Part shown: piece after piece, positions 8,400 through 54,423 of the stretch
Layout: the number at the start of each line of letters is the position of its first letter
How positions within the stretch are numbered: position 1 is the first letter of the stretch
Assembly: GCF_007754155.1 (NCBI RefSeq)
Contig: NZ_CP037423.1
Coordinates: 248,001 to 312,000 of the forward strand
Origin: Stieleria neptunia
GTDB taxonomy: Bacteria > Planctomycetota > Planctomycetia > Pirellulales > Pirellulaceae
DNA length: 64,000 nt
Direction of reading: 5' to 3'
Notes under the pieces: model-generated
The model's input: only the letters and a program-made list of their open reading frames with translations
Told to the model about the DNA's origin: nothing
The model's database searches: none
Program-made: the position numbers and the translations under genes

Positions 8400-8448
8400 G
8401 ACAGGCTGGAAGCCTATCCCACGTTGACAGGCTGGAAGCCTATCCCAC
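8400..8448. repeat. Family D repeat (GACAGGCTGGAAGCC), two direct copies
   Basis: Two 23-bp units at 8400-8422 and 8426-8448, each reading GACAGGCTGGAAGCC followed by TATCCCAC. They sit 5 bp past the 3' end of the convergent sulfatase gene. The same unit occurs at 13.8, 17.3, 38.4, 41.1 and 54.4 kb, nearly always within a few bases of a gene end. Confidence 0.9.
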
Positions 8449-13826: not shown

Positions 13827-13912
13827 GTGGGAGAGGCTTCCAGCCTGTCGTTGCAGCATTGACAGGCTGGAAGCCTATCCCACTGGATTGACAGGCTGGA
13901 AGCCTATCCCAC
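13827..13912. repeat. Family D repeat, three units (one inverted, two direct)
   Basis: An inverted unit at 13827-13849 and direct units at 13861-13883 and 13890-13912. The first two can fold into a stem-loop between the convergent WD40-like and protease genes. The last overlaps the 3' end of the protease gene, and its TATCCC, read on the minus strand, supplies that gene's TAG stop codon. Confidence 0.9.
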
Positions 13913-14842
13913 TGGATTGCCAGTCGATCTCATGTTGCGTCGCCGGCGTCCAAGTCCCACCGGTGCCCAGACGGCCAACAGGAAACCGCAGGCGGTCGGT
14001 TCGGGGACTGCGGTGATCGAGAGAGTCCCAAGCGAATAACCTTGCGCAGAGACGAGACTGGAGAGTTCGTCTTCATAAGCCCCGACAAGCGTCGAAAAAC
14101 TGTCGTATCGATCGCCCGCACCGGCATTTGCCCCTGCAGGCACATCGATCCCCATGTGTGTGCCGATCAGCCCGATCTGTCCGTCGATCTCGATCAGGGC
14201 GGCGCTGCCAGAGTCGCCGCTGAGCAATCCGATCTCGTCGCGTCCCAGACCGCCTGTCCCTCCGTTGGTGTCGGTGTCGTACGAAAACTGAACGGTCCAT
14301 GAATCGCGGCTGCCGTCCTCAAACTCCACGACACCAATCGCGTCGATCACGTTGCGACCGGCCCGCATTTGGGCATCCATGGCAAACAACGTTCGGCCGA
14401 TCAACGCGTCCAAAGCTCCCACCACGATCGGAACGGGGACGACGCTCGGGGCGACATCGGACGCCAACGTGTGAAGACGGATATCGCTGAATGCCGATGG
14501 CTGCCCGGGAATCACCGTCGTCAAGTCTTGGGAACTCGCCGATTGGTACGTTCGCTCGATCCCGTCGGTACCGCGGAAGGTCACTTCGGTCGGACTGGCA
14601 TGGGCGGCTGTCACATAGTGACGGGGTGTGATCAAGACGGCACCATGCAGTGCAACGCCGGAGAGCAGTGACTCGTCGACCAGGAAAGACGGATTGGGCT
14701 CCCCGTCACTCAGAAATCTGTCGTGACGCTCCGGGTCCAATCCGTCAATGATCGCGGCCGACACGCGCGAGTGGATACTCAGCAGGGCGATCCCAAGCAG
14801 AAGAAGCCGGATGATGGACGTCACGACGGGGGTCTCGGGCAA
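13904..14842 (-). CDS. Trypsin-like serine protease with PEP-CTERM anchor
   Basis: About 312 residues. The start is uncertain: TTG at 14842 or GTG at 14824, both just before the signal SIIRLLLLGIALLSIHSRVSA. The chymotrypsin-fold triad is visible as His81 in YVTAAHAS, Asp120 in FSDIRLH and Ser211 in LSGDSGSAALI. The C-terminus has a PEP-CTERM sorting signal: VPEP, a hydrophobic stretch (CGFLLAVWAPVGLG) and an arginine cluster RRRRN. PEP-CTERM proteins are processed by an exosortase, usually in exopolysaccharide producers; none is encoded here. The final residues and stop codon lie inside a family D repeat unit. Confidence 0.85.
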   Translation of the reverse strand: MPETPVVTSIIRLLLLGIALLSIHSRVSAAIIDGLDPERHDRFLSDGEPNPSFLVDESLLSGVALHGAVLITPRHYVTAAHASPTEVTFRGTDGIERTYQSASSQDLTTVIPGQPSAFSDIRLHTLASDVAPSVVPVPIVVGALDALIGRTLFAMDAQMRAGRNVIDAIGVVEFEDGSRDSWTVQFSYDTDTNGGTGGLGRDEIGLLSGDSGSAALIEIDGQIGLIGTHMGIDVPAGANAGAGDRYDSFSTLVGAYEDELSSLVSAQGYSLGTLSITAVPEPTACGFLLAVWAPVGLGRRRRNMRSTGNPVG

Positions 14843-14918
14843 TCAAGGGACGGGGGCGGGGGGCGGGGTGATCGTTACAGTAGTCGATCGATGTTGAGGG
14901 GGCAAATTGGATGGAGAG

Positions 14919-15022
14919 GAGACACGGAGACACGGAGACACGGAGACAAGGAGACAAGGAGACAAGGAGACAAGGAGACAAGGAGACAAGGAGACAAGGA
15001 GACAAGGAGACAAGGAGACAGG
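14919..15022. repeat. 8-bp tandem repeat (GAGACACG/GAGACAAG), about 13 units
   Basis: Three GAGACACG units (14919-14942), nine GAGACAAG units (14943-15014) and one GAGACAGG unit (15015-15022), then two GGGGGCA units. The array is uninterrupted and without spacers. It lies between the 5' end of the protease gene and the 3' end of the photolyase-like gene, both on the minus strand. Open frames across it encode only low-complexity peptide. Confidence 0.95.
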
Positions 15023-15094: not shown

Positions 15095-16600
15095 CTACTC
15101 CAGGCCGTCCAAAAAACGTTCCGCGTTCTCCAGGTGTTGCTCGCGTTTGTCGGCGTCCATCTTTTTCGCCATGCTGCACATCATCGCCCAGCGGGGATTC
15201 TTGCCCAGTTCCTGGTGGTGGTTCCAAATCCATCGCCAGTACAGTCCGTCCCAGACGTCGCACCAGGGCGCGGATTTGTAATGGCTCATCTTGCGAATGT
15301 ACGACGAACCCGAGAAGTAGGGTTTGGTGGTGATCAGCCCGCCGTCTGCATTTTGACTCATCGCATAGGCGTTGGGGACCATCACCCAGTCATAGCTGTC
15401 GATGAACAGTTCCATGAACCAGCGATAGATGTCATCGGGGTCGATTTCGCACAGGAACATAAAACCGCCCAGCACCATCAATCGTTCGATATGGTGACAG
15501 TAGCCGGTTTGCAAGACGCGTCGGATGGTTTCATCGATCGGGTCGATGCCCGTTGTCGCGTCGTAGAAACAGTTCGGCATCGGTCGATGGTGTCGCCAAT
15601 GATTGGTCGTCCGCATCTTGACGCCCAAGTCTTGGTAGGTGGCGCGAATGAACTCGCGCCAACCGATGATTTGTCGCACAAATCCTTCCAATGAATTCAG
15701 CGGCACGTCATGGTCTTCGGCGTAGTTCAACGTCTTTCGGAGCACTTCGTCCGGCGTCAGCAAGCCGATGTTCAGCGACGGCGTCAACACACTGTGCCAC
15801 AGCCACGACTCGCCCTCCACGATGGCGTCTTCATAGTCGCCAAACTTAGTCAGTCGCTTGTCCAAGAATTGTTTCAACCAGTACCGCGCCGAGGCGCCGG
15901 ACGTGGGGTAATACAGCGTGTCGAGCGTGCCCGGATGATCGTCGAATCGCTCTTGAACGTAGCTCACTGCTTCTTCGTCAAACCGGTCGCGTTTGGGTTC
16001 TGGAACCGCCGGGATCGAGGAGAGTTCTCGCTTGGGGACCTTGTTGCGATTGTCCTCGTCAAAACTCCACTGATCGCCGACCGGTTCGTCACCGTCCATC
16101 AACACGTCCAGACGCTTTCGTTGCCATTTGTAAAAGTCGGCCATGAACCAACGGTTTTTCTCGGACCGATACTCGCTGTTCTGCTCGGGCGTGTTCAGGA
16201 ATCCGGGGTTGGAAAGAAACTTCAATTCCATCTCCAGTTCGTCACAAGCCTCTCGCACACGTTTTTCAAAGATGAAATCGGTCGGATGGGCGATCGCAAA
16301 CGTTTGGCCCTTGCGCTCTTTCGCCGGAATCGCTTGCTTAATTTGATCCGTTAGCTTGGGGGTCTCTCTGTCGTAGTCGACGTAGCGAGTGCGGAAACCC
16401 TTGTCGATCAAATCGGCTTCATAGCGTTTCATCGTCGCACGATGCAGCCATAGTTTTTGCTTGTGAAACTTTGCCGGGTATCGCCAGTCACCAAAGAACA
16501 ACGAGTCCTCCAGCAACAGCACCTGCGACGGTTTCTGACGCAGTCCTGGATGATTGGAAAACAGTTGATTGGGAAGGATGGCCAGGATCAACGTTGTCAC
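15095..16600 (-). CDS. Photolyase/cryptochrome of the FeS-BCP (PhrB, 6-4 type) family lacking the cluster cysteines
   Basis: About 501 residues from the GTG at 16600 (VTTLILAILPNQLF); a TTG at 16660 would add a tail unlike the family. The N-terminal Rossmann-like domain reads QVLLLEDSLFFGDW with FHKQKLWLHRATMKRY. The FAD-binding region has FVRQIIGWREFIR, GYCHHIERLMVLGGFMFL, DSYDWVMVPNAYAMSQNADGG and SSYIRKMSHY, as in bacterial (6-4) photolyases such as Agrobacterium PhrB. In that family four cysteines hold a [4Fe-4S] cluster. From memory of the family pattern, the equivalent positions here are P (in GIDPIDE), K and P (in SHYKSAPW) and D next to a shifted Cys (in PWCDVWDGLYW). Light-driven DNA repair is likely; the cluster is probably absent. 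Confidence 0.85.
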   Translation of the reverse strand: MTTLILAILPNQLFSNHPGLRQKPSQVLLLEDSLFFGDWRYPAKFHKQKLWLHRATMKRYEADLIDKGFRTRYVDYDRETPKLTDQIKQAIPAKERKGQTFAIAHPTDFIFEKRVREACDELEMELKFLSNPGFLNTPEQNSEYRSEKNRWFMADFYKWQRKRLDVLMDGDEPVGDQWSFDEDNRNKVPKRELSSIPAVPEPKRDRFDEEAVSYVQERFDDHPGTLDTLYYPTSGASARYWLKQFLDKRLTKFGDYEDAIVEGESWLWHSVLTPSLNIGLLTPDEVLRKTLNYAEDHDVPLNSLEGFVRQIIGWREFIRATYQDLGVKMRTTNHWRHHRPMPNCFYDATTGIDPIDETIRRVLQTGYCHHIERLMVLGGFMFLCEIDPDDIYRWFMELFIDSYDWVMVPNAYAMSQNADGGLITTKPYFSGSSYIRKMSHYKSAPWCDVWDGLYWRWIWNHHQELGKNPRWAMMCSMAKKMDADKREQHLENAERFLDGLE

Positions 16601-16762
16601 CTCGGGGCGGGCGGGCTGTGATTCGGGACAGCGTGATCCCGAGATTGCACTGTAGCCCAACGGAAATTCTCAGTCATCCGTCGTGTGCGAATCTGCACGT
16701 CGCTTGTCACGCCCATAGAGTTTCGCCGGGCAAACAAACCACTTCTACACACGGAGATTGAC

Positions 16763-16978: not shown

Positions 16979-17322
16979 TGGTGGACAATCGTGATGCGTT
17001 GACGCTGGAGGGCTTGTTGGAATTTGAAGTCCAGGGACGTTGCTTTACGATCACCGCGAAACCGGAATTGATCGTCGTCGATTTCCCGGACGTGCAGTCA
17101 CTTCTCACGGCGACGCGGAACACAGGCCCCGGCATCTCCCTTCGCTCCCAGGTCAATCGGGTCGGCGAATGGTTGGTGCGGACGGAAAATGAACTGGACT
17201 TGCGGATCGATGGTGAGACGGTTGGCTCGCTCGGATTTGGGGTGCCGTCGGGTCTGTGTTCGCTGGTCGGCGTTGGGCATTTCCGAATCGCCTTTCTGTC
17301 GTTAGTTCGGTCAATGTTTTAG
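16978..17322 (+). CDS. Hypothetical protein coupled to the upstream small gene
   Basis: A 114-residue protein whose ATG at 16978 shares a base with the upstream TGA, which fixes the start. The sequence alternates hydrophobic and polar residues (FEVQGRCFTITAKPELIVVDF, ENELDLRIDGETVGSLGFG), suggesting a small all-beta protein with a hydrophobic C-terminus (FRIAFLSLVRSMF). No family is recognised. A family D repeat pair starts 4 bp after its stop codon. Confidence 0.65.
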   Translation: MVDNRDALTLEGLLEFEVQGRCFTITAKPELIVVDFPDVQSLLTATRNTGPGISLRSQVNRVGEWLVRTENELDLRIDGETVGSLGFGVPSGLCSLVGVGHFRIAFLSLVRSMF

Positions 17323-17325
17323 ACA

Positions 17326-17378
17326 GTGGGATAGGCTTCCAGCCTGTCATCTCGGTTCCGACAGGCTGGAAGCCTTTC
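17326..17378. repeat. Family D repeat, inverted pair (stem-loop)
   Basis: An inverted unit at 17326-17348 faces a direct unit at 17360-17378. Together they form a long stem with an 11-bp loop just past the stop codon at 17322, a position suited to an mRNA 3' end or transcription terminator. Confidence 0.9.
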
Positions 17379-17415
17379 TCGCGAAGGGGCAATCCGCCGG
17401 ACGCTGCTCCGGCGA

Positions 17416-17618
17416 TTATTCGGTGGCGGCACGGTAGAGCATCTCGTGGTGTTCGGCGGATGCAAGCAGATCGACGATCGGGGTGGGATAGTCGACACCG
17501 ATCACACAATTCGATTGCTGCTGTTGTTCGCGTGACATTTCCCACGGACGATGGACGTGTGAGTTCGGGACATTGGCAAGCTCCGGCAGCCAGTGCCGGA
17601 CGAAGTCCCCGTTGTCTT
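17416..17618 (-). pseudogene. C-terminal remnant of a DNA photolyase (classical type)
   Basis: Reading from about 17618 down to the stop at 17416, the frame gives NGDFVRHWLPELANVP, SHVHRPWEM and CVIGVDYPTPIVDLLA. This is the recognisable end of the FAD-binding domain of classical photolyases (compare E. coli PhrB: FIRQWLPEL, VHEPW, DYPQPIV). Everything N-terminal to NGDFV is missing: upstream codons run antisense through a DNA-ligase fragment and bear no resemblance to photolyase. About 65 of an expected 450-500 residues remain, so it cannot be functional. The break lies at about 17611-17618. Confidence 0.8.
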
Positions 17619-18423
17619 TCATGCCTTTGACGTGATGGAGCACCATGGCGAGGATGTTCGAGCGCTTCGTTTCGTCGAACGTCGGGCCCGCTTGGACGAG
17701 TTGCTGGGGTCGATCGACCATCCCCATCTCGAAGCGACGGAATTGATCGACGGTGAGAGCTGGGAGGCGTGGGCCGACATTCGAACGACCAGTCGCCAGT
17801 GGAATGCCGAAGGATTGATGTTAAAGAGAAAGGACACGGCCGTAGACATGCTGTTGGTCGCCGACACGCATTTGGGGAAAGACGCCACGTTTCGTCGTCA
17901 CGGGATTCCGGTTCCGGTCGGCAGCACGAAAGGAACGCTGTCAACGATCGCGGGTGTGTTGCGGCAAACGTGTGCGACCCGATTGTGCATCCTCGGAGAT
18001 CTCTTTCACGCGCGATCATCATTGTCCACCGAGATTCGTCATCAGGTTGATGCCTTTTTTGACGAATTCGCACACCTGAAGTTTTCATTGATCTGGGGAA
18101 ACCATGACGCGCAGGTCGGTCGACTTCCGGCGGCTTGGCCGATCACGGTTCATGAGCCCGGTTGGTGCATCGGTTCGCTCGCGTTAGGCCTTCATCCGAT
18201 GGCACCACCCGAGGGTGCCGACTTGTCTGTGTGCGGGCATTTGCATCCTGCGATACGCTATCGCGTTGGTCGCGAGTCCACGGGAAAACTGTCTTGTTTT
18301 TGGTATTCCGGCGGGTGCCTGGTCTTGCCCGCGATCGGAGAATTCACCGGGACGCATCTGATTCGCCCGCGACAAAATGACTCGACTTGGTTCATCGCGG
18401 GCAACGAGGTTTACTCGTTGTAG
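17593..18423 (+). CDS. pdeM: In-frame chimera: DNA-ligase internal fragment joined to endonuclease PdeM
   Basis: An open frame of 276 codons. Residues about 5-83 match the middle of an ATP-dependent DNA ligase. Residues 86-276 are a metallophosphoesterase of the ligase-associated DNA-damage-response endonuclease PdeM type: LLVADTHLGKDATFR, CILGDLFHARS, LIWGNHDAQ and VCGHLHPAIRYR carry the metal-binding D, H, D, N and H residues. Normal PdeM has about 20 more N-terminal residues before the first motif; these are replaced by ligase sequence. Possible starts are the GTG at 17593 or an ATG at 17848, immediately before LLVADTHL. Whether the product is active is uncertain: the catalytic residues are complete but the N-terminal strand is foreign. 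Confidence 0.8.
   Translation: MPDEVPVVFHAFDVMEHHGEDVRALRFVERRARLDELLGSIDHPHLEATELIDGESWEAWADIRTTSRQWNAEGLMLKRKDTAVDMLLVADTHLGKDATFRRHGIPVPVGSTKGTLSTIAGVLRQTCATRLCILGDLFHARSSLSTEIRHQVDAFFDEFAHLKFSLIWGNHDAQVGRLPAAWPITVHEPGWCIGSLALGLHPMAPPEGADLSVCGHLHPAIRYRVGRESTGKLSCFWYSGGCLVLPAIGEFTGTHLIRPRQNDSTWFIAGNEVYSL
17608..17844 (+). pseudogene. Internal remnant of ATP-dependent DNA ligase (LigB-like, repair-associated)
   Basis: In frame with the PdeM part, the sequence reads VVFHAFDVMEHHGEDVRAL, FVERRARLDELLGS, GESWEAWADIRTTSR and AEGLMLKRKD. This corresponds to the stretch of ATP-dependent DNA ligases leading to nucleotidyltransferase motif IV (EGLMLKR). The catalytic lysine motif (KxDG) upstream and the motif V and OB-fold region downstream are absent. 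In the usual bacterial cluster the order is exonuclease, ligase, Lhr-like helicase, PdeM. A single in-frame deletion from inside the ligase through the helicase into pdeM would yield this structure. Confidence 0.75.
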
Positions 18424-18571
18424 TCGTGCGATTGAGTGCCGATCCGATCGCGGGTGACAATCGGAGCGAAAAATGGCGATTTCGTGAGGGTGAAGAATTG
18501 CGGTTCGTCCGATACCGCTATGATGCGTCTCCCGGTTCCCGCTTTTCAACGACGACCACCACGAACGGGCC

Positions 18572-18913
18572 ATGCTTGCGACAACAGTGTTTTCGGCGAC
18601 AGTCCTGTCGGTTTTCGGCAACCTCTTAGCGCTTGACGAGATAGCCGTTCGCGGCCTTTCCATTGCCGTGGCAGGCATGCTGATCGTGATGTTTGCGCTC
18701 ACCTTCATCAGCCTTTTCATCGCCGCATCACCCCGCATTCTCGCCGCGGTCGCCAAGGTCTATCCGGAGCCTGTCGAGCGGCATCGCAAGCGACCGGATC
18801 CGAAGGGGCTGAATGGTGACGACGAAGCCGTTCTGGCGGCAATCGGATTTGTGCTGCACACCGAGTTTCAGCGTCAGTGCGCGGCCGAGAACGCGGCGAA
18901 GAAGAACGGATGA
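18572..18913 (+). CDS. oadG: Oxaloacetate decarboxylase Na+ pump, gamma subunit
   Basis: A 113-residue protein from the ATG at 18572. The first ~55 residues contain the family's membrane anchor (RGLSIAVAGMLIVMFALTFISLFIAA), followed by a basic cytosolic segment (RHRKRPDPKG) and a short helix (DDEAVLAAIGFVLHTEFQRQ), the overall plan of OadG. The gamma subunit holds the alpha and beta subunits together at the membrane. Small OadG proteins are poorly conserved, so the call leans on its position directly before oadB and oadA. Confidence 0.75.
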   Translation: MLATTVFSATVLSVFGNLLALDEIAVRGLSIAVAGMLIVMFALTFISLFIAASPRILAAVAKVYPEPVERHRKRPDPKGLNGDDEAVLAAIGFVLHTEFQRQCAAENAAKKNG

Positions 18914-18966
18914 CGGCGAGAGGAATGTGGGGCAGTTGTTGGCACCGTGGATTGTGAAGGTAATCG

Positions 18967-20133
18967 ATGGATATCCTCCAAGAGTTTATAAAAACAACCG
19001 GCTTCTGGTCGCTCGGACCCGGCAACGTGGTCATGATCGTGATCGGGATTGTGTTCATCGCGTTGGCGATCACAAAAGATTACGAGCCGTTGCTATTGGT
19101 CCCGATCGGGATGGGCGCGATCGTCGGCAACATCCCGTTGATCGAAGGCATGTCGCTGAGTGTCTACGACATGCACCGGTGGGTGATCGAAGACGGGCAA
19201 GTCAATTATCAGCCGGGCAGTGTGCTGAGCTATTTGTATTTTGGGGTCAGCTGGGGCATCTACCCGCCGTTGGTCTTTTTGGGCATCGGCGCGATGACGG
19301 ATTTTTCCACGATGCTTTCCAATCCGAAGCTCGTCCTGCTGGGGGCGGCGGCGCAAGTCGGCGTCTTTTTGACATTCCTCGGCGCGATCTGGCTGGGGTT
19401 TGATTTGAAGCAGGCCGGTGCGATCGGGATCATCGGCGGCGCCGACGGGCCGACCGCGATCTTTCTCTCGTCCAAACTCGCCCCCGAATTGTTGGGCGCG
19501 ATCGCGATCGCCGCCTATTCCTACATGGCGTTGGTTCCCGTGATCCAGCCGCCGATCATGCGTTTGCTGACCACCCATGACGAGCGACTGATCCGCATGA
19601 AGCCGCCGCGGAAGGTCTCCCGTCGTGAGAAAATGATCTTTCCCGTCGCGGCGTTTCTGATTTGCACCCTGGTCGCACCCGGTGCGATGGTGCTGTTGGG
19701 GATGTTGTTCTTCGGCAACCTGTTGAAAGAGAGCATGGTGACCGAGCGGTTGGCCAACACGGCGCGGACGGCGATGATCGATATCGTCACGGTCTTGTTG
19801 GGTTTTTCCGTTGGCGCCAGCACCGAGGCGAGCACCTTTTTGACGCGGCAGTCACTGTTGATTTTCGGACTCGGTGCGTTGGCGTTCGCGATCGCCACCG
19901 CCGGCGGCGTCTTATTCGCCAAGTTCATGAACCTGTTCTTGAAAGAAAAAATCAACCCGTTGATCGGAGCCGCCGGGGTTTCCGCGGTTCCCGATTCGGC
20001 GCGCGTGGTGCAAATGGTGGGTCAACAGGAAGACCCGCACAATTTTTTGTTGATGCATGCGATGGCACCCAACGTGGCCGGTGTGATCGGTTCGGCGATT
20101 GCCGCGGGTGTGTTGTGGGCTGTGCTGACCTAG
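18967..20133 (+). CDS. oadB: Na+-translocating decarboxylase, beta subunit
   Basis: A 388-residue polytopic protein from the ATG at 18967. The signature IGIIGGADGPTAIFLSSKLAP carries the Asp implicated in Na+ transport, and VLLGFSVGASTEASTFL, INPLIGAAGVSAVPDSARV and NFLLMHAMAPNVAGVIGSA are conserved in OadB/GcdB/MmdB proteins. This subunit decarboxylates carboxybiotin and exports Na+. It follows oadG by 53 bp and precedes oadA by 59 bp. The length fits the family. Confidence 0.95.
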   Translation: MDILQEFIKTTGFWSLGPGNVVMIVIGIVFIALAITKDYEPLLLVPIGMGAIVGNIPLIEGMSLSVYDMHRWVIEDGQVNYQPGSVLSYLYFGVSWGIYPPLVFLGIGAMTDFSTMLSNPKLVLLGAAAQVGVFLTFLGAIWLGFDLKQAGAIGIIGGADGPTAIFLSSKLAPELLGAIAIAAYSYMALVPVIQPPIMRLLTTHDERLIRMKPPRKVSRREKMIFPVAAFLICTLVAPGAMVLLGMLFFGNLLKESMVTERLANTARTAMIDIVTVLLGFSVGASTEASTFLTRQSLLIFGLGALAFAIATAGGVLFAKFMNLFLKEKINPLIGAAGVSAVPDSARVVQMVGQQEDPHNFLLMHAMAPNVAGVIGSAIAAGVLWAVLT

Positions 20134-20192
20134 CGGGGCCAGTGCTGACCTAGCCGTTTGTAAGAGCGTGTTTTGATAACGAGGAAAACGAC

Positions 20193-22028
20193 GTGTCGAA
20201 AAAGAAAGTCAATTTCATGTGCACCGCATTCCGTGACGGATTTCAATCCGTGTTCGGCGCCCGCGTGTTCACCAACGATTTTCTGCCGGCCGTGGAAGCG
20301 GCACGCGATGCGGGGATCACCTGGTTCGAAGCCGGGGGCGGGGCGCGGTTCCAGTCGCTGTATTTCTATTGCAATGAGAACGCGTTCGACATGATGGACG
20401 CGTTCCGCCAAACCGCCGGGCCGGATGCGAATTTGCAGACGCTGGCCCGGGGCGTCAACGTCGTCGGGCTGGATTCGCAATCCAGCGACATCGTCAAACT
20501 TCATGCCCAGATGTTCAAAAAGCACGGCATGACCACGATTCGCAACTTCGACGCGCTCAACGATGTCAACAACCTGATCTACAGCGGCCAGTGCATCGTC
20601 GATGCGGGACTGAAACACCAGGTCTGTGTGACGCTGATGGAGTTGCCGCCGGGGTGCGTCGGTGCCCACGACGCCGCTTTCTACGCCCGCACCTTGCAGC
20701 AGATCCTCGACGCCGAGATTCCGTTTGATGCCGTCTGCTTCAAAGACGCGTCGGGGACGGCCGTGCCCTCGAAGGTCTACGAGACGATCAAAGAGGCGCG
20801 GCGGATGCTGCCCGCGGGTACCTTCATCCATTTTCACACGCACGAGACCGCCGGTGTTAGCGTGTTGGCCAACAAGGCCGCACTCGACGCGGGCGCCGAT
20901 GCGATCGACTTGTCCATGGCACCGTGTTCGGGAGGAACCTGTCAGCCGGACATCCTGGTGATGTGGCACGCGCTCCGCGGCAGCGACTACGAACTAGATG
21001 TCGACGTCGAAAAGGTCCGCGAGGCCGAAGAGGTCTTCAAGGACTGCATGAGCGATTATTTTCTGCCGCCCGAAGCGACCGCCGTCGAACCGCTGATTCC
21101 CTGGAGCCCGATGCCCGGCGGTGCGTTGACCGCCAACACCCAGATGCTGCGTGACAACGGGATCATGGAAAAGTATCCCGAGATCATCGTGGCGATGAGT
21201 GATGTCGTCCGCAAAGGCGGCTACGGCACCTCGGTGACGCCCGTGTCGCAGTTTTATTTTCAACAGGCGTTCAACAACGTGATGTTCGGCCCCTGGAAAA
21301 AGATTGCCGAACCGTACGGAAAAATGGTGCTCGGTTATTTCGGCAAAACGCCCGTCGAGCCCGATCCGGATGTCGTTCGATTGGCCGCCGAACAGCTCAA
21401 GTTGGAACCGACGACGCGGCCGGTTTTGGAGATCAACGATGCCGACCCCACCAAGGGCATCGCCGCGGCGACGGCGGTGTTGGAACAAGCGGGGTTGCCG
21501 GTGACCGATGAGAACATTTTCATCGCCTCGACGTGCAAAGAGAAAGGTATCAAGTTTCTCAAGGGCGAAGCCGAAGTGGGGGTGCGGAAAATCGACAAGG
21601 CGGCCGAGGCTGCCAAGTCCGCCGAAGTCGCTCAGCCGACCGGCAAGCCACAGACGGGACCCGCCGAATACACCGTCACCGTCAACGGCGAGGACATCAT
21701 GATGGCGTTCGAGGGTGACGTGGTGACCGTCGGCGGCCGAGTTTATCGGGTGGCGATTCGCCCCGAAGGTTCTCAGACGCCGAAATCGCAAGTCAGTGAA
21801 AGCCCCGGTGCGTCCACCGAGATCAAATCGCAAATGCCCGGCGCCGTGTTCAAGCAACTGGTCCAACCGGGCGATCACGTCCACTCCGGTGAACCGATTC
21901 TGATCTTGGAAGCGATGAAGATGGAGATGGAAATCAACTCCACTGTCGATGGCACGGTCGACGAAGTCCGCGTCGCGGTCGGCGACCACGTCACGACCGG
22001 GCAAGTCCTGGCCACGATCAAAGCCTGA
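20193..22028 (+). CDS. oadA: Oxaloacetate decarboxylase alpha subunit (carboxyltransferase-biotin carrier)
   Basis: A 611-residue protein starting with GTG at 20193, with GAGG ten bases upstream. Residues 1-280 are the HMGL-like carboxyltransferase barrel (FRDGFQSVFGARVF, FKDASGTAVPSKVYE, HFHTHETAGVSVLANKAALD with metal-binding histidines). Then comes the PYC/OADA region (PGGALTANTQMLRDNG) and, after a linker near 500-540, a biotinyl domain with the attachment lysine in LEAMKMEMEI. It transfers CO2 from oxaloacetate to biotin for decarboxylation at OadB. Close relatives act on methylmalonyl-CoA or glutaconyl-CoA, but a single-chain barrel plus biotin carrier fits OadA best. Confidence 0.92.
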   Translation: MSKKKVNFMCTAFRDGFQSVFGARVFTNDFLPAVEAARDAGITWFEAGGGARFQSLYFYCNENAFDMMDAFRQTAGPDANLQTLARGVNVVGLDSQSSDIVKLHAQMFKKHGMTTIRNFDALNDVNNLIYSGQCIVDAGLKHQVCVTLMELPPGCVGAHDAAFYARTLQQILDAEIPFDAVCFKDASGTAVPSKVYETIKEARRMLPAGTFIHFHTHETAGVSVLANKAALDAGADAIDLSMAPCSGGTCQPDILVMWHALRGSDYELDVDVEKVREAEEVFKDCMSDYFLPPEATAVEPLIPWSPMPGGALTANTQMLRDNGIMEKYPEIIVAMSDVVRKGGYGTSVTPVSQFYFQQAFNNVMFGPWKKIAEPYGKMVLGYFGKTPVEPDPDVVRLAAEQLKLEPTTRPVLEINDADPTKGIAAATAVLEQAGLPVTDENIFIASTCKEKGIKFLKGEAEVGVRKIDKAAEAAKSAEVAQPTGKPQTGPAEYTVTVNGEDIMMAFEGDVVTVGGRVYRVAIRPEGSQTPKSQVSESPGASTEIKSQMPGAVFKQLVQPGDHVHSGEPILILEAMKMEMEINSTVDGTVDEVRVAVGDHVTTGQVLATIKA

Positions 22029-41089: not shown

Positions 41090-41178
41090 GTGGGATAGGC
41101 TTCCAGCCTGTCGATTGCAGCATCGGCGAGCCTTGAAGTTGATCCACTTTCGTCTGACAGTCTGGAAGCCTATCCCAC
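41090..41178. repeat. Family D repeat, inverted pair
   Basis: An inverted unit at 41090-41112 and a direct unit at 41156-41178 (one mismatch in GACAGTCTGGAAGCC) lie 26 bp after the TIM-barrel gene and end 36 bp before the dehydrogenase gene. They can pair over 23 bp with a 43-nt loop, so they may terminate or attenuate the transcript between these two genes. Confidence 0.9.
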
Positions 41179-54400: not shown

Positions 54401-54423
54401 GACAGGCTGGAAGCCTCTCCCAC
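54401..54423. repeat. Family D repeat, single unit
   Basis: GACAGGCTGGAAGCC followed by TCTCCCAC, between the SHD1-like gene's end (54444) and the tsaE start. It is 20 bp past the upstream gene's stop codon, the usual position for this family. Confidence 0.88.

Follow-up and report, generated by a model that had tools for sequence, protein, structure and literature searches.

Does a long open frame that joins part of an ATP-dependent DNA ligase to most of the metallophosphoesterase PdeM mark a new fusion protein, or the debris of a lost operon? The question is raised by a locus of the marine bacterium Stieleria neptunia, which we analysed within a window of 64,000 bases (G000:C1:248001-312000; positions given below are those of the window) from a single-contig genome of 10,975,817 bases. 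We conclude, at a probability of roughly 0.87, that a ligase-associated DNA-repair operon has been lost here and that the locus is its scar, with a chimeric pseudogene left behind.

Composition of the chimeric frame

The chimeric open reading frame (17593-18423, + strand) encodes 276 amino acids from a GTG at 17593 or 262 amino acids from an ATG at 17635, the latter being the start (MEHHGED) used in the protein database entry for the window's own protein (P0002, 262 amino acids). Two profile matches divide the frame between them: residues 4-83 correspond to ATP-dependent ligase (TIGR04120, profile positions 304-383 of 526, E 8.5e-18), and residues 84-274 to PdeM (TIGR04123, profile positions 21-206 of 207, E 5.6e-50; 169.6 bits against a cut-off of 150). 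Together with the DNA alignment to relatives described below, these E-values indicate a chimera of ligase and PdeM parts beyond chance. The earlier note had likewise described one frame joining a ligase piece to PdeM, and had correctly placed that piece inside the ligase with its end at motif IV, where the second junction falls. The range of 17416-18423 that it assigned to this frame proved to be composite, as reading from 17416 meets two stops, the true final one included, and the range comprises the stump of a neighbouring gene plus the open reading frame.

At the DNA level, the ligase island (17601-17834, + strand, delimited by profile and DNA alignment) is 234 bases long and ends at EGLMLKRK. 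The next two bases, CA, are foreign to both parents (17835-17836; junction 2, located by alignment to relatives), and after them PdeM runs from inside codon 25 to its stop (17837-18423, + strand, TIGR04123). Base 17837 aligns with base 2 of codon 25 in the 219-residue PdeM of Rhodopirellula sp. SM50; what PdeM lacks is accordingly its first 24 codons and a piece of codon 25, rather than the approximately 20 residues proposed before. Since the island and PdeM both remain in their native frames, their in-frame joint would be a one-in-three event.

The remainder of the range, 17416-17612 on the - strand (the upper coordinate is approximate), holds the C-terminal 64 codons and stop of a DASH-type cryptochrome/photolyase gene (PF03441, E 7.8e-18), and meets the ligase island at junction 1 (17600-17613, located by alignment to relatives).

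Intact counterparts and the two junctions

Three genomes of the same genus, Rhodopirellula sp. SM50 (G005), Planctomycetes bacterium TBK1r (G012) and Stieleria sedimenti ICT_E10.1 (G002), match the window colinearly to either side of the locus by DNA alignment. Each has four frames at the locus, the order and size of which are those of exonuclease, ligase, helicase and PdeM. Family profiles run on the frames of S. sedimenti and SM50 gave 462.0 and 451.8 bits for the TIGR04122 exonuclease (cut-off 325), 635.1 and 632.8 for the TIGR04120 ligase (cut-off 400), 1076.1 and 1075.4 for the TIGR04121 Lhr-type helicase (cut-off 850), and 200.5 and 199.6 for TIGR04123 PdeM (cut-off 150); the frames of TBK1r were judged by order and size. 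The comparison with close relatives suggested by the earlier note thus finds the intact cluster at this place in all three genomes and an intact cryptochrome in S. sedimenti, and it adds a loss that the note had not mentioned, that of the exonuclease gene. The S. neptunia remnants align well with their counterparts: the 234 ligase bases, without gaps, are 94.4% identical to SM50, 93.6% to TBK1r and 88.0% to S. sedimenti, and the DNA from PdeM onwards (about 4.2 kb) is 93.0%, 92.1% and 92.5% identical, respectively. In contrast to the ligase-associated repair cluster (TIGR04122, TIGR04120, TIGR04121 and TIGR04123/MPE), whose place and order are common to the three relatives, S. neptunia keeps just these 234 ligase bases and approximately the last 194 codons of PdeM, with neither exonuclease nor helicase. 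Directly after PdeM, both in the window (18572-22028) and in the near relatives, lie genes resembling the gamma, beta and alpha subunits of a sodium-pumping decarboxylase.

Relocation of the missing genes within the genome was considered and rejected, as no TIGR04120, TIGR04121 or TIGR04122 match rises above its cut-off. The sole genomic match to the ligase profile is the island itself (64.3-64.6 bits, cut-off 400), which also maps downstream of the KWDG segment present in the intact relatives, and hence has no catalytic core with motif I, which we take the KWDG segment of intact ligases to be. The helicase profile has 13 matches in the S. neptunia genome, none above cut-off (best 236 bits against 850), and the exonuclease profile two, again none above cut-off (best 31.7 against 325). 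Judged by these profiles, S. neptunia appears to possess other helicases and distant relatives, without the cluster's own helicase and exonuclease.

Elsewhere in the genus, 11 of the 13 other genomes carry ligase and PdeM as separate frames and two have no match, so that the fused form was found in 0 of 13. The pairs lie less than 5 kb apart in seven of the 11 by coordinates; in the other four they are distant (more than 100 kb in two, on different contigs in two), and PdeM is therefore not always beside the ligase in this genus. The two genomes without a match to either part are G004 and G008, the latter 85% complete, and more than one loss of the repair cluster may have occurred in the genus. 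A common or old fusion was also rejected: among the matches listed (120 of 273, from candidate proteins up to 1.75 times the query length, longer ones being left out), no other homologue carries the fused form. Nearly all of these alignments cover about 66-70% of the fusion, the widest 84%, and ten homologues picked for wide cover or length contain metallophosphoesterase domains only.

The intact relatives allow both breakpoints to be placed. At junction 2 (17834/17837), where ligase motif IV runs into PdeM codon 25, 3,439 bases are missing relative to SM50, 3,299 relative to TBK1r and 3,293 relative to S. sedimenti; the lost sequence comprises the ligase end, the helicase, and the PdeM start with its upstream gap, as in the single deletion that the earlier note had envisaged. 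The second rearrangement it had postulated, at the photolyase-type stump, corresponds to junction 1 (17600/17601), where comparison with S. sedimenti reveals the absence of 3,471 bases containing the rest of the cryptochrome, the exonuclease and the N-terminal part of the ligase. Over the next 12 bases the S. sedimenti cryptochrome agrees with the TBK1r and S. sedimenti ligases at nine positions, and at the remaining three the window has the ligase base; by this alignment, junction 1 carries an apparent imperfect microhomology of about 12 bases. Ku-dependent end joining was rejected after a search for Ku, which had no match in the S. neptunia genome (the control search gave a match in one of 14 genomes).

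The identity of the stump rests on the same comparison. The DNA at 15100-17613 matches the S. sedimenti locus L023 contiguously at 87.3%, and the amino acid sequence of the stump is 79% identical to that of the intact S. sedimenti protein over its residues 427-493; the intact protein is a 493-residue DASH cryptochrome (TIGR02765, 540.9 bits against a cut-off of 317.05) encoded just upstream of the cluster on the opposite strand. The last 64 codons are common to both species, in corresponding positions and on the same strand, and S. neptunia, unlike S. sedimenti, is without the approximately 430 N-terminal residues. Since S. neptunia retains this segment, a cryptochrome once occupied the site and was later cut. 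The description of the stump as the tail of a classical photolyase on the opposite strand consequently stands with respect to the tail and needs revising with respect to the type, which is DASH by virtue of the S. sedimenti orthologue. The stump itself has no TIGR02765 match at E 0.01, because it begins about where the profile ends (the intact protein was matched over 5-438). When the S. sedimenti protein was searched against 14 genus genomes, a full orthologue occurred in S. sedimenti only. Apart from the S. neptunia segment, there were a distant relative in G003 (32%) and marginal matches in five genomes (E 2e-5 to 9e-4); the other six gave none. The gene was perhaps gained in common by S. 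sedimenti and S. neptunia.

In S. sedimenti the cryptochrome gene (L023:5068-6549) lies between a photolyase-related gene and the exonuclease. The photolyase-related gene (PF04244) adjoins the stump in the window at 15095-16660, is conserved in the relatives and has no relaxed rate; this frame and two remote frames (845 and 489 amino acids, one of them below cut-off) are the other PF03441 matches in S. neptunia. The window also holds a hairpin-forming intergenic repeat with the core GACAGGCTGGAAGCC, present at 17325-17378 as two inverted copies separated by 11 bases and again at 8400-8440, 13835-13904, 41098-41112 and 54401-54415. The core has 539 exact copies genome-wide, against 0 for the reversed control, and a 24-base form has 280 copies on both strands; among the matches listed (the first 100 of 280 places), the distribution of this palindromic repeat did not support the idea that it follows the chromosome arm. 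A tandem array of the 8-base unit AGGAGACA (14917-15020, 13 copies at 97%) lies a short way upstream of the - strand frame 13904-14842.

Metal site and constraint on the PdeM remnant

The case for a functional PdeM depended largely on the claim that every metal-binding residue had been kept. Residue 200 of the fusion (fusion numbering) is Leu, and the aligned position is His in 119 of 119 PdeM homologues (the listed proteins among the best 120 of 273 matches, the window's own left out). The metal motif published for this enzyme class reads D(X)H(X)nGD(X)nGNHD(X)nH(X)nGH(X)H (PMC4320098), and residue 200 falls in the column of the single His placed after GNHD and before GHxH. The complete motif (DxH, GD, GNHD, H and GHxH) is consequently absent from the fusion, and its remaining residues are kept. 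Among the matches listed, 46 of the 47 near-invariant PdeM columns (at least 95% conserved) are retained, residue 200 being the sole departure. With the claim about the metal site mistaken, most of the case for function goes. The only solved relatives found for the intact PdeM of TBK1r are entries of the nuclease MPE (PDB 6nvo and 6nvp; E 6e-34 and 7e-34), presumably that of Pseudomonas putida. Compared with MPE, the window copy is without the N-terminus and has Leu in place of the His of ALQHEP, with which residue 200 aligns in 6nvp.

Substitution rates were compared with a codon model of our own on six genomes, with the more distant G026 and G003 left out. For the PdeM part, omega on the S. 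neptunia branch was 0.487 versus 0.167 elsewhere (p 0.032), a rise that held over five tree topologies (p 0.029-0.040). This own-branch value does not differ from an omega of 1 (p 0.147), which the branches of SM50, TBK1r and S. sedimenti each reject (p 0.004, 0.0003 and 0.001, respectively). A simple count shows how modest the signal is: PdeM changes unique to S. neptunia number 8N:4S, versus 10N:21S in the three relatives together (Fisher p 0.08). No rate rise appears under the model for OAD beta, OAD alpha or the photolyase-related gene, which are neighbours of the locus. The comparison of dN/dS between the two parts that had been suggested earlier is thereby answered unevenly: the PdeM part is raised on its own branch, and the ligase island alone (77 codons) has an omega of 0.23 with no rise (p 0.043 against 1), a value that we count as uninformative. 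When the two are joined, the own-branch omega comes to 0.395, with p 0.058 for a difference from the background and p 0.024 for one from 1. Since this value lies below 1, constraint would have acted over part of the S. neptunia branch, which is what a deletion later than the split would predict. Taken together, the rates suggest constraint earlier and relaxation later, a modest signal drawn with limited power from several uncorrected tests.

The openness of the frame adds little to this picture. Under simulated drift (substitutions only, no indels) it stayed open in 68-70% of cases at 10 changes and in 47-49% at 20, and because it so often survives, openness is no evidence of function.

Competing explanations and significance

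A different history for the same scar would be one complex break-repair event, in which the cryptochrome tail was joined to PdeM and the 234-base ligase piece was copied or captured as filler. Such an event would suit the way in which the two junctions border a single short piece of the deleted sequence, as well as the two bases foreign to both parents at junction 2, which end joining can leave. However, the island has kept its order, its orientation and its former neighbours on either side, as two plain deletions predict without extra assumptions, and the genome has no Ku match; we regard this history as unlikely. The possibility that the frame encodes a retained or repurposed protein, whether a catalytically changed PdeM with a ligase N-terminus or a product restarted at the ATG at 17848, appears very improbable. 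Its 276 open codons, its 46 retained columns (among the matches listed) and the joined omega below 1 would all fit, but the motif His, the first 24 codons and the upstream region are gone, the own-branch dN/dS is raised, and the partner genes above cut-off are absent from the genome. The ATG at 17848, offered earlier as a start, is an internal PdeM codon that is GTG in TBK1r, and the earlier hint that PdeM is retained and possibly expressed is not supported. No sigma-70-like site on the + strand emerged from a consensus scan of 17200-18600, weak evidence that we counted as uninformative. A more specific version, in which the chimeric frame would be expressed and retained as a PdeM-derived DNA-binding protein, either non-catalytic or metal-altered, whose N-terminal extension comes from the ligase, is a long shot; if true, it would be a new protein born from a ruined repair operon.

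That the junctions were seen in one assembly of one strain also raises the prospect of an assembly error at one or both of them, which we find barely credible: the genome is described as closed (PMC7378531), the remnants have their own substitutions relative to all three relatives, and the missing genes occur above cut-off nowhere else in 10.98 Mb.

The explanation that we favor remains the relic of a lost operon. Two junctions have removed most of the cryptochrome and of the ligase, all of the exonuclease and helicase, and PdeM codons 1-24, leaving the 234-base ligase island between them. End joining with little or no homology, and without Ku, probably produced the deletions, and the in-frame joint, with its one-in-three chance, would have yielded a long open frame for free. 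The leftover frame would make no working nuclease, ligase or cryptochrome, and is probably a drifting pseudogene that arose after the nearest relative had split off. Chimeric open reading frames created when an in-frame deletion joins two truncated genes are known among bacterial pseudogenes, and we found nothing that sets the S. neptunia case apart from these in general.

Read in this manner, the locus would show the loss of a whole repair operon in which chance left a long in-frame open reading frame, with intact close relatives available for comparison. It also calls for caution, as such frames, or a PdeM match above cut-off, do not amount to a functional fusion or to retained repair. For the biology of the genus, S. 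neptunia would represent a natural absence of the repair cluster alongside relatives that have it.
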